From assembly GCA_031280915.1 (NCBI GenBank), contig JAITGC010000014.1, forward strand, positions 1-54,526: 54,526 nucleotides of DNA, in the 5' to 3' direction. Both the position numbers and the translations under genes were made by a program. The stretch is from Desulfovibrio sp. (GTDB lineage Bacteria > Desulfobacterota > Desulfovibrionia > Desulfovibrionales > Desulfovibrionaceae). The notes below the pieces were generated by a model. The model ran no database searches. It saw only the letters and a list, made by a program, of their open reading frames with translations, and was not told the DNA's origin. How positions within the stretch are numbered: the first letter of the stretch is position 1; every line of letters starts with the position of its first letter. Shown one piece after another: positions 24,782 to 26,589 of the stretch.

Positions 24782-25642
24782 TTATGCCGTTGGAAACAGG
24801 GCCAGCGCCATAAGCGCATGAACCAGTTTCGCGGCTGTGAAATCGGCATGATGCAGGCCGGGCACAGGCGCGAGTTCCACAACGTCAAAACCGACGATTT
24901 CACGCCCGCGCGCGCAGCGCCTCAGCAATTCCACCGCATCATGCCAAAAAAGCCCGCCCGGCGATGGCGTGCCTGTGGCGGGCATGAGTGAGGCGTCCAG
25001 CCCGTCAACATCAAAACTTATGTAAATACGCCGGGGAAAATCCCCCGCCAGTGGTTCCGACGGAATTCCCTCACGCGCCAACGCCGCGGCGTCGTAATGG
25101 CGTATCCGCCGCTCCTCGCGAAAAGCGCTCTCTTCCCGGCTGATTTCCCGCACCGCGAACTGGGCCAGCGGCAAGCCGAGATCATTGACGGCGCGGTACA
25201 TGACGCAAGCGTGGGAGAGCGGATTTCCTTCATATTCCGCCCGCAGGTCCGCGTGGGCGTCTATGTGCACAATACCGAACTCTCCTTTGCGGGCAAGAGC
25301 GCGCAGAGCGCCAAGGCTCACCGTGTGCTCACCACCGAGCAACACAGGGCGTGCACGGCAGACAAGGGCATGCCTCACCAACTCTTCAACCCGGAAAAGC
25401 ACAGTTTCAGTTCCACCCGCACAGTTCACAAAAGGGGCGGTATAAAAACCTGACTCACCGGGCGCCAAACCGCCTTCCACAGCCTCCAACTGCCGGGAGG
25501 CCGCAAGCAGGCCCGCCGGCCCCCGGGCAGCGCCGCCGCCGTAAGAAACTCCGTGCTCCAGAGGAACGGGAATTATGTGAAAAGCCGCTTTCTCCGGCGG
25601 GCTCTGAGGGTATTCCGAATCGAGAAAATACGTTCGTTTCAT
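24782..25642 (-). CDS. speB: Agmatinase / arginase-family ureohydrolase
   Basis: 286 residues. Di-manganese hydrolase, most likely agmatine to putrescine plus urea. The metal-binding motifs are all present: GGEHTVSLG (about 100), HIDAHADLR (about 125) and SFDVDGLDASLMPATGTPSP (about 210). ATG at 25642 has no good Shine-Dalgarno and lies only 14 bases after an intrinsic terminator (25657-25687), so expression may be conditional. It is followed by panB and a hyuA-like gene. Substrate among guanidino compounds is inferred. Confidence 0.88.
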   Translation of the reverse strand: MKRTYFLDSEYPQSPPEKAAFHIIPVPLEHGVSYGGGAARGPAGLLAASRQLEAVEGGLAPGESGFYTAPFVNCAGGTETVLFRVEELVRHALVCRARPVLLGGEHTVSLGALRALARKGEFGIVHIDAHADLRAEYEGNPLSHACVMYRAVNDLGLPLAQFAVREISREESAFREERRIRHYDAAALAREGIPSEPLAGDFPRRIYISFDVDGLDASLMPATGTPSPGGLFWHDAVELLRRCARGREIVGFDVVELAPVPGLHHADFTAAKLVHALMALALFPTA

Positions 25643-25656
25643 TTTTTAAACCCAAC

Positions 25657-25687
25657 AAAAAACGGCCTGGATGGGGATTCCAGACCG
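25657..25687 (-). terminator. Intrinsic terminator immediately upstream of speB
   Basis: Minus strand: 9-bp stem CGGTCTGGA / TCCAGGCCG (one G-U) with a 7-base loop, followed by TTTTTT. The T-run ends 14 bases before the speB ATG, so transcripts initiating upstream must pass it to express speB. Confidence 0.85.
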
Positions 25688-25726
25688 CTTTTATGAAGGA
25701 GGCTGTCAGCAAAAGAAAGGAAGGTA
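25657..25726 (-). ncRNA. Candidate sigma54-dependent small RNA or attenuated speB leader
   Basis: Between a sigma54-type promoter (25736-25753) and the terminator 25657-25687 lies a predicted transcript of about 70 nt. Its unpaired 5' part is pyrimidine-rich with two anti-Shine-Dalgarno-like stretches (CCTTCC and GCCTCCTT), the usual seed type of regulatory RNAs. GCCTCCTT is exactly complementary to the AAGGAGGC ribosome site of glcD in this window. The alternative is a leader of speB that ends early unless antiterminated. Confidence 0.4.
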
Positions 25727-25735
25727 TATTGCTTT

Positions 25736-25753
25736 AAGCATATTTCGTGCCAA
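25736..25753 (-). promoter_or_regulatory. Sigma54 (RpoN) -24/-12 promoter
   Basis: Minus strand TTGGCACGAAATATGCTT: GG and GC are exactly 10 bases apart, and only the first base of the TTGC box differs from consensus. Upstream, AT-rich inverted repeats (ATTTTATT / AATAAAAT near 25775-25795) could bind an enhancer-binding protein. Start expected near 25726. Confidence 0.7.
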
Positions 25754-25873
25754 ACTGAAAAAATACATACCGTATTTATTTTATTAAATAAAATCTCTCC
25801 CCCCACTAAAAACACGGTTAAAAAATTTTTACTTCCCGGCAACGATTCCAAGGTATTCAGGAATATTTCAGGC

Positions 25874-25922
25874 AAAAAATTGAACCGCCGGCATTTCACT
25901 TCTCACTCCACAAGACCGGCGG
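25874..25922 (-). terminator. Probable terminator of queC
   Basis: Minus strand: CCGCCGG (25916-25922, in the last queC codons) pairs with CCGGCGG (25885-25891) around a 24-base loop, and TTTTTT (25874-25879) follows after 5 bases. Long loop, so moderate strength. Confidence 0.5.
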
Positions 25923-26589
25923 CGGCAAGGGCCTCCCCGCGTTCAACGCAGGTGCCGCACTTGCCGCAAGGATTTTCCTGATTTTTATAGCAGCTGCGCG
26001 TCAGGGCAAAAGGCACACCCAGGCTTTTGCCCAGCGCCGCGATTTCTTTTTTGCTCATGCCGATGAACGGGGCCTCAAGACGGACGCGCCCTTCCGTACT
26101 TTGAGCAACAGCCTCAGCCGCCGCCCCGATAAAGGCCTTGCGACAGTCGGGGTAGACATGGCTGTCTCCATGATGGGCGGCAATACAAATTTTTTCCGCG
26201 CCGATGGATTCCGCCAATCCGGCGGCGACGGCAAGAAAAATGAGATTTCTGCCCGGCACGACAGTCAGTTTCATATTACCGGCGGCATAATGCTCTTCGG
26301 GTATTTCCCCGCCGCCTTCGAGAAGATGACTTCTGAATCCCTTGAAACACAAGGCCATGTCAATACATTGATGCTGCGGCGCACGCGGGCCGAGGCGAGC
26401 CAGAATGCCCCGCGCGGCCTTGAGTTCATAAAAATTGTGCTTGGAAGGGTAACGGAAGCTGACGGCCAAAACCCCGTCCCGGCCGTATCGCTCAAGGCAA
26501 TGGAACAGGGCGACGGCGCTGTCCATGCCGCCGCTGAAAAGCGTCAAAACGCGCGGCGAGGCGTGAAGTATGCGTTTGCGGCTTGCCAT
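25903..26589 (-). CDS. queC: 7-cyano-7-deazaguanine synthase
   Basis: 228 residues. ATP-dependent formation of preQ0 for queuosine. N-terminal PP-loop LTLFSGGMDSAVAL (about 16), middle VPGRNLIFLAVAAG (about 110), and the C-terminal zinc site ENPCGKCGTCVERG with an upstream Cys in SCYKNQ (about 200), all typical of QueC. ATG at 26589, weak ribosome site. Divergent from nth with a shared 155-base upstream region. Confidence 0.93.
   Translation of the reverse strand: MASRKRILHASPRVLTLFSGGMDSAVALFHCLERYGRDGVLAVSFRYPSKHNFYELKAARGILARLGPRAPQHQCIDMALCFKGFRSHLLEGGGEIPEEHYAAGNMKLTVVPGRNLIFLAVAAGLAESIGAEKICIAAHHGDSHVYPDCRKAFIGAAAEAVAQSTEGRVRLEAPFIGMSKKEIAALGKSLGVPFALTRSCYKNQENPCGKCGTCVERGEALAAAGLVE

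Follow-up and report, generated by a model that had tools for sequence, protein, structure and literature searches.

A predicted sigma54-dependent small RNA family of Desulfovibrionaceae with conserved upstream palindromes and porin mRNAs as a candidate target class

The Qrr small RNAs (sRNAs) of the Vibrionaceae are controlled by LuxO and sigma54 through upstream activator sites, occur as sibling copies, act by base pairing, and have a multi-hairpin fold with a conserved core. The MicF/MicC class of enteric sRNAs, which is not known to be sigma54-driven, base-pairs with porin mRNAs around the Shine-Dalgarno (SD) sequence, while AbcR and NfeR1 of alphaproteobacteria carry C-rich unpaired anti-SD stretches, AbcR again with sibling copies. 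In sulfate reducers, sRNA control appears to us, judging from literature listings, to be little explored. Four sigma54-dependent noncoding RNAs, named by position only, are described for D. vulgaris Hildenborough in the parts of two papers on which we draw (Kazakov 2015, PMC4641369; Rajeev 2011, PMC3333781).

The locus described here lies on the minus strand of a 54.5-kb stretch of Desulfovibrio sp. DNA, which was analysed as a whole and is called the window below. In the direction of transcription it consists of a sigma54 promoter, TGGCACGAAATATGCT (25737–25752), followed by TAAAGCAATA, a predicted start at 25726, a C-rich stretch, a GC-rich hairpin, and six T ending at 25657, after which the arginase/agmatinase-family gene speB (24782–25642, PF00491) begins at 25642. 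The gene on the other side is queC (25903–26589, minus strand, PF06508). The near-consensus −24/−12 promoter of the original prediction was found at 25752–25737: it has the GG-N10-GC arrangement, is conserved in homologues, and is the sole match to the strict pattern TGGCA[CT]N7GC[AT] on either strand of the window. The related pattern TGGCACGN5TGCW matches six times in the window's own genome, against once for its reversed control. The start is placed at 25726 because the C of the −12 element is at 25738. One exact copy of the promoter, at G000:C19:16108, was considered as a second RNA gene and rejected, as the RNA core and terminator are absent downstream and it precedes an amidase-like gene (by eye).

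The predicted RNA is about 73 nt long (25654–25726) and matches our covariance model R1 from 25726 to 25654 with 83.7 bits, the window being itself one of the training rows of R1. As had been proposed for an RNA of roughly 70 nt, it contains C-rich anti-SD segments. The first, ACCTTCCTTTCTTTT (25725–25711), contains the putative seed CCTTCCTTTCT and pairs with some porin leaders; it is followed by GCTGACAG and the second anti-SD segment CCTCCTTC (together 25695–25710, with the C-rich part at 25703–25695). The intrinsic terminator occupies 25657–25692, with a stem at 25692–25658 and a T run at 25662–25657. There are 14 bases between the T run and the ATG of speB, and no good SD is seen by eye before that ATG, both as originally described.

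Conservation was analysed at speB loci. A search with SpeB covered 61 genomes (the window's own and 60 relatives), 51 of which gave a match, and the upstream DNA was read for the best 30 loci. Conservation of promoter, seed, and terminator across Desulfovibrionaceae had been proposed as a check, and the complete set of promoter, RNA, and terminator is present at 26 of these 30 loci, within 330 bp at 25 and about 330 bp upstream at the other (L009, genome G002). At L013 the promoter falls outside the 330-bp slice and is present in a longer one. The remaining four speB loci (L026, L027, L029, and L030) have no such set, and R1 finds no copy in their genomes (G031, G030, G033, and G016). The conservation profile was taken from 22 of the 25 loci, namely those whose slice reaches 160 bp or more upstream of the core. 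Mean pairwise identity is 0.92 in the 5′ part of the RNA, 0.77 in the hairpin, 0.72 in the promoter, and 0.67 in the upstream site, but falls to 0.43 in the DNA that separates this site from the promoter and to 0.34 beyond the terminator (spacers and post-terminator sequence together range from 0.34 to 0.45). The 25 loci were chosen by the string CCTTCCTTTCT, which makes those 11 columns invariant by selection; without them, the identity of the 5′ part is 0.88. Some members found with R1 depart from this string, with CCTTCCTTATCT in G137 and CCTTCCTTTTTT in G122, and a further departure in G112. The second segment is conserved in most of the 25 rows; its GCCTCC core is not a fixed element, being changed or lost in L011, L013, L024, and others. 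In two loci of group g17 (L143 and L144), the sRNA variants carry repeated CTTCC blocks (CCTTCCTTCC...ATCCTTCCTCCTTCTCC), which form an enlarged anti-SD array.

The terminator stem has 14 pairs, followed directly by the six T, and the folding z score of the RNA is −3.4. Terminator-like sites are common in this DNA: there are three in 3.5 kb, compared with 5.6 expected from shuffled sequence. Since this count falls below the shuffle expectation, a terminator match is by itself no evidence, and it is the covariation that provides it. In the alignment of homologues, 98.5% of the stem cells are paired and both sides have changed in 7 of 11 pairs; none of 500 shuffles scored as high on any of five measures, and versions with the stem slid along the alignment did not come close either. 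The intrinsic terminator originally placed at 25657–25687 is therefore borne out by a covarying stem, and the RNA has a terminator of its own by both sequence and covariation. The conservation profile and the stem covariation together are, at the level of sequence, the pattern of a gene and not of drift. The consensus fold shows the terminator hairpin only, and the C-rich 5′ part is conserved and unpaired. We found nothing in favour of reading the transcript as the mRNA of a small peptide instead of a base-pairing RNA, and inspection of the alignment, in which the conserved segment has no ATG and homologues differ by indels of one to several nucleotides, makes that reading extremely improbable.

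The original prediction offered as an alternative that the element is a speB leader controlled by antitermination. On this reading the terminator would limit transcription from the sigma54 promoter into speB until antitermination relieves it. In the window, as in G001, speB does start directly after the terminator, so that read-through into speB is possible there, and in the window its SD is weak. The arrangement does not hold across the family, however. The gap from the RNA core to the speB match varies from 82 to 319 nt among 25 loci and, with other DNA in between, is about 330 nt in G002; post-terminator sequence is unconserved (identity 0.34), leaving no fixed linkage to speB with a conserved intervening leader; the consensus fold offers the terminator hairpin and no other structure; and sibling RNAs occur without speB, no homologue of which is found in 12 named Nitratidesulfovibrio-type loci (4–8 kb each) or in three loci of group g24. 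Because the gap varies and speB is missing at the Nitratidesulfovibrio-type loci, the leader idea fails for the family, and we consider it very unlikely. We judge speB to lie outside the sRNA unit; the locus is, as far as can be read from the DNA, very probably a stand-alone sigma54 sRNA gene.

R1 was built from the 25 loci selected by CCTTCCTTTCT, and a match of at least 49 bits was called strong. Strong matches occur in 62 of 288 genomes of the family, comprising 54 of the 79 in the window's genus and 8 Nitratidesulfovibrio (group g24); 25 of the 62 are training rows. G310 has a weaker match, of 39.6 bits, with a promoter. A sample of 395 genomes from the phylum gave 11 strong matches, all within the window's genus and none outside the family, together with 28 further genomes with weak matches, the best of which (E = 2.8e-5, G369) has no promoter. 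Among weak matches with E from 1e-5 to 0.01, three were inspected (G240, G138, and G369), and all were rejected as members for want of a promoter. Scanning genomes from 84,980 species with a pattern returned 57 stretches, which by eye are 44 RNA-like stretches and 13 chance matches elsewhere. The 44 come from records named Desulfovibrio, Nitratidesulfovibrio, Desulfovibrionaceae, or, for L098, Deltaproteobacteria; one of them (L090) is cut short by the end of its contig. The RNA is present in records named Desulfovibrio piger and D. desulfuricans, as well as in those of Nitratidesulfovibrio. A looser pattern matches 106 of the 288 family genomes, many clearly by chance, and beyond groups g1 and g24 the RNA could be read only in g14, g17, and g56.

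Some genomes contain more than one copy. Places where a sigma54 promoter is followed by CCTTCCTT number three in five of the eight g24 genomes and two in the other three (75–93% complete). Nitratidesulfovibrio and Desulfovibrio sp. A2 have three RNA types, which share the promoter, CCTTCCTTTCTTT, and similar upstream sites, and differ in their second halves and terminators, while one g14 genome carries a pair of copies separated by about 370 bp. This multi-copy layout, with up to three copies in Nitratidesulfovibrio, is on sequence grounds that of sibling sRNAs. In Desulfovibrio sp. A2, a ZTP riboswitch (L118 130–214; RF01750, 62 bits) was also observed about 3.2 kb from a sibling sRNA.

Upstream of the promoter there are two putative activator sites: a proximal one, GTAAAAATTTTTTAAC (25817–25832, minus strand, score 21.1), and a weaker distal one, GTTCAATTTTTTGCCT (25870–25885, minus strand, score 13.0), 53 bp away. 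The site matrix was trained on 73 of 86 loci; of the 13 dropped, 12 were chance matches by eye and one (L144) looked genuine. The motif is a 16-bp palindrome, approximately GT(T/A)(A/C)AA-N4-TT(T/G)(A/T)AC, and its sites are better conserved than the DNA nearby (0.67 compared with 0.43). Two or more sites with a score of at least 9 occur in 59 of the 73 loci, and 48 of the 73 have a pair 51–53 bp apart, these being the loci that trained the matrix. The spacing is commonly about 53 bp, or five helical turns. Strong sites (score of at least 16) are infrequent, with eight in 904 kb of the window's own genome, including that of the window, and four in 400 kb of G137. Among the others in the own genome (L318, L322, L348, L357, L367, and L388), L318 and L322 were checked for a sigma54 promoter and none was found. 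An identical 16-mer matching the motif, GTTCAAAATCTTTTAC, lies upstream of an mreB-like gene both in G000:C3 (L230 1501–1516) and in G137 (L237 1501–1516), with no evident sigma54 promoter at either place. The original proposal of a new sigma54-dependent sRNA has good support at the sequence level: the element is conserved, its stem covaries, it has sibling copies, and the paired sites upstream of it are conserved as well.

An enhancer-binding protein at the paired upstream sites would be expected to drive sigma54 RNA polymerase. Two reduced genomes that carry the RNA were used to narrow the candidates: full enhancer-binding proteins number two in G137 (1.4 Mb, one contig) and three in G036, and only one, a response regulator that is 84.5% identical between them, is common to both. 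It is the likeliest activator, because it is the only enhancer-binding protein that these genomes share. In g24 its homologue combines receiver, AAA+, and Fis domains and contains the GSFTGA motif, and matches to the regulator at E ≤ 1e-60 occur in 286 of the 288 family genomes (paralogues included). Its gene follows a histidine kinase gene in G087, G006, and G061, preceded in turn by a phosphoglucose isomerase gene in G087; no adjacent kinase gene is found in G137 or in the window's own genome. Among the D. vulgaris regulators, those with GSFTGA are DVU2394 and DVU3220 according to Table 1 of PMC4641369, and the portion of PMC3333781 used here gives DVU3220 as one of two regulators whose conservation extends to every Desulfovibrio examined. 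We therefore call the regulator DVU3220-like, from its GSFTGA class and near-universal occurrence; the name denotes resemblance only.

This elimination has exceptions, and the DVU3220-like regulator has about an even chance of being the activator. RNA-less genomes such as G016, G030, G031, G117, and G115 hold a regulator that is 70–76% identical, which counts against it. It is also quite possible that another enhancer-binding protein, or several, fills this role. G009 (98% complete) carries the RNA without the regulator, as does G007 (93% complete) without a close copy of it (best E 3.6e-92), and a large one-component protein is common to G137 and G009 (L188 and L239, 93% identical). However, L188 is without a close counterpart in G036 (99% complete), leaving the response regulator as the only protein of this kind shared with G137, and G009 misses the whole 6-kb neighbourhood of the regulator. 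Autoregulation of the DVU3220-like regulator was considered and rejected: no motif with a score of at least 12 is present in 32 of 34 regulator loci (some of which overlap), and the other two have scores of 12.9 (L251) and 15.6 (L202).

The 5′ segment CCUUCCUUUCU(UUUGC) would pair with purine-rich ribosome-binding sites and so block translation, and pairing of this anti-SD kind is the likely mode of action judging from the sequence. The original prediction pointed to glcD, and to a possible link with lactate oxidation, from the match of GCCTCCTT in the RNA to AAGGAGGC before that gene. The match is unspecific: AAGGAGGC is an ordinary SD that occurs at four places besides the RNA locus, and the link to lactate oxidation finds no support. 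Nor is the exact complement of the 11-nt seed usable as a target finder, since it shows no enrichment, with 14 places in nine genomes, seven of them the RNA genes, compared with 23 for the reversed control. The seven outside RNA genes comprise two before porin genes of G028, one before another gene (L271, G001), and four not before a start. The complement of the second segment, AGGAGGCTGTCA, gives many single-mismatch matches, with no gene shared among the few viewed, and was likewise set aside. At L301 1501 in G137, the SD of an rpmI-like gene (by eye), AAGGAGGCTGTCATG, matches 12 nt of the second segment perfectly. A regular-expression search of sampled DNA for the motif of AmtB found no shared target in amtB, and one for Hfq, a search of little weight, found nothing.

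The best-supported target class, seen in relatives only, would be the mRNAs of outer-membrane homotrimeric porins; NF033939, the model for Desulfovibrio homotrimeric porins, scores far above its cut-off in two related full-length porins. Nine porin genes were compared (porin L023, being the start of L128, was not counted separately; L128 and L255 come from one genome, G007), and 579 gene starts called mechanically in the own genome and in G137 served as reference. In two porin genes of G028, GCAAAAGAAAGGAAGGT lies over the SD before the ATG and gives 17 nt of perfect complement to the RNA, whereas the longest perfect run among the 579 starts is 11 nt; the duplex energies of these two leaders, which are paralogues and not independent, are reached by 2 and 1 of the 579. 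Four further leaders have moderate complements that include G-U pairs. Those of L084, L128, and L087 have 14-nt runs with G-U (reached by 1 of 579), their perfect runs being only 8 nt (23 of 579), and that of L255 has 12 nt with G-U (9 of 579) and a perfect run of 7 nt (77 of 579). The duplex energies of these four leaders are reached by 148 (L084), 25 (L128), 93 (L087), and 8 (L255) of the 579 starts, which makes L084 and L087 ordinary and L128 and L255 better. Complementarity to the porin SD is thus strong in two of the nine, both in G028, and moderate in four. Of the two intact porins seen in the 39% of the own genome sampled (L309), one reaches a perfect run of 9 nt (5 of 579) and the other shows nothing of note, as is also the case for the porin leader of G137. 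The own genome also has a contig that starts inside a porin-like gene and holds its C-terminal part (L353 3–182, C12), so that at least one own porin leader is unseen. The G137 porin (L341 5768–4254, minus strand) has an apparently broken frame, its pieces matching porin in more than one frame.

The upstream palindrome also occurs before porin genes. At least two motifs with a score of at least 15 precede five of the nine, namely the first G028 copy, L128, L255, L084, and L087, which carry two to four motifs each, some of them flanking an apparent sigma70 promoter (by eye). For comparison, the strong sites counted above (score of at least 16) number only eight in 904 kb of own DNA and four in 400 kb of G137. 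No sigma54 promoter was found before any of these five porin genes. The motif is absent before the other four: the second G028 copy (241 bp upstream seen), both own porins (L309), and that of G137. One regulator could thereby lower porin both at the promoter, through the same palindromes, and via the RNA. In three related genomes (L084, L087, and L128), the sRNA, speB, and porin genes lie in that order on one strand within about 2.5 kb.

From these comparisons, the porin link looks good in G028 and is suggestive in one further clade; for the genome of the window it is unproven. Whether one or more species truly have porin as a target we regard as evenly balanced on the pairing and motif data, and the RNA may act as a porin shut-off switch. 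A different possibility is that the sRNA has broad anti-SD pairing and no dominant target, and acts as a general translation damper under one signal. The RNA has two anti-SD segments; AGGAGGCTGTCA with at most one mismatch beats its reversed control in nine of nine genomes, although in G003 only by five to four, with the RNA gene counted; and no convincing target start was found in 904 kb (39%) of own DNA. Set against this, the first segment exceeds a generic anti-SD in length, its exact complement occurs less often than the reversed control, and the porin matches in G028 extend over 17 nt, and we think such a damper rather unlikely. Taking the locus as a whole, the best explanation is probably a free-standing, trans-acting sigma54 sRNA of about 73 nt that would work by anti-SD pairing, with porin as the best-supported target class. 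A fuller model, which we put forward tentatively and with more doubt than belief, is a two-tier envelope circuit. The near-universal and so far motif-less DVU3220-type regulator would bind GTWMAANWWNTTKWAC-like palindromes, activate one to three sibling sRNAs, and repress the major porin at its promoter, and the sRNAs would silence porin mRNA at the SD.

This work provides a sequence-defined sRNA family with its promoter, putative activator sites, and a testable target. It also points to a candidate control of DVU0799-type porin, which the part of PMC5686591 consulted places among the most abundant proteins in the outer membrane of D. vulgaris. The family is real in sequence, of a known kind, and absent from Rfam 15, whose sRNA models give no match at the gathering score (the best below threshold is Aar, E = 0.2). 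No report of this RNA was found among the literature matches listed (titles and beginnings of abstracts, a scope that excludes subscription journals and supplements), and the main text of PMC11124144 does not mention sigma54, RpoN, agmatinase, or porin.

Compared with AbcR and NfeR1, the RNA has similar C-rich anti-SD stretches and, like AbcR, sibling copies, but differs in its bacteria and its sequence. The porin-repressing NcS25 of Burkholderia likewise pairs at or near the porin SD, as far as the consulted part of PMC10117139 describes it, whereas no sigma54-like motif was found upstream of NcS25. The noncoding RNAs of D. vulgaris come from related bacteria and have sigma54 promoters with upstream sites, according to the sections of PMC4641369 and PMC3333781 used. 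By the same sections three of the four adjoin their own activator gene, whereas here a motif search of the loci up to L138 found an activator gene only in L101. This comparison is by position and description only, and the present RNA may be identical with one of the four, above all with that upstream of DVU3282. The original parallel with Qrr holds for the mode of control and not for membership: the RNA described here has one consensus hairpin in place of a multi-hairpin fold, belongs to another phylum, and likely has other targets, but it shares with Qrr a sigma54 promoter with upstream sites, a likely response-regulator activator, sibling copies, and a proposed action by base pairing.
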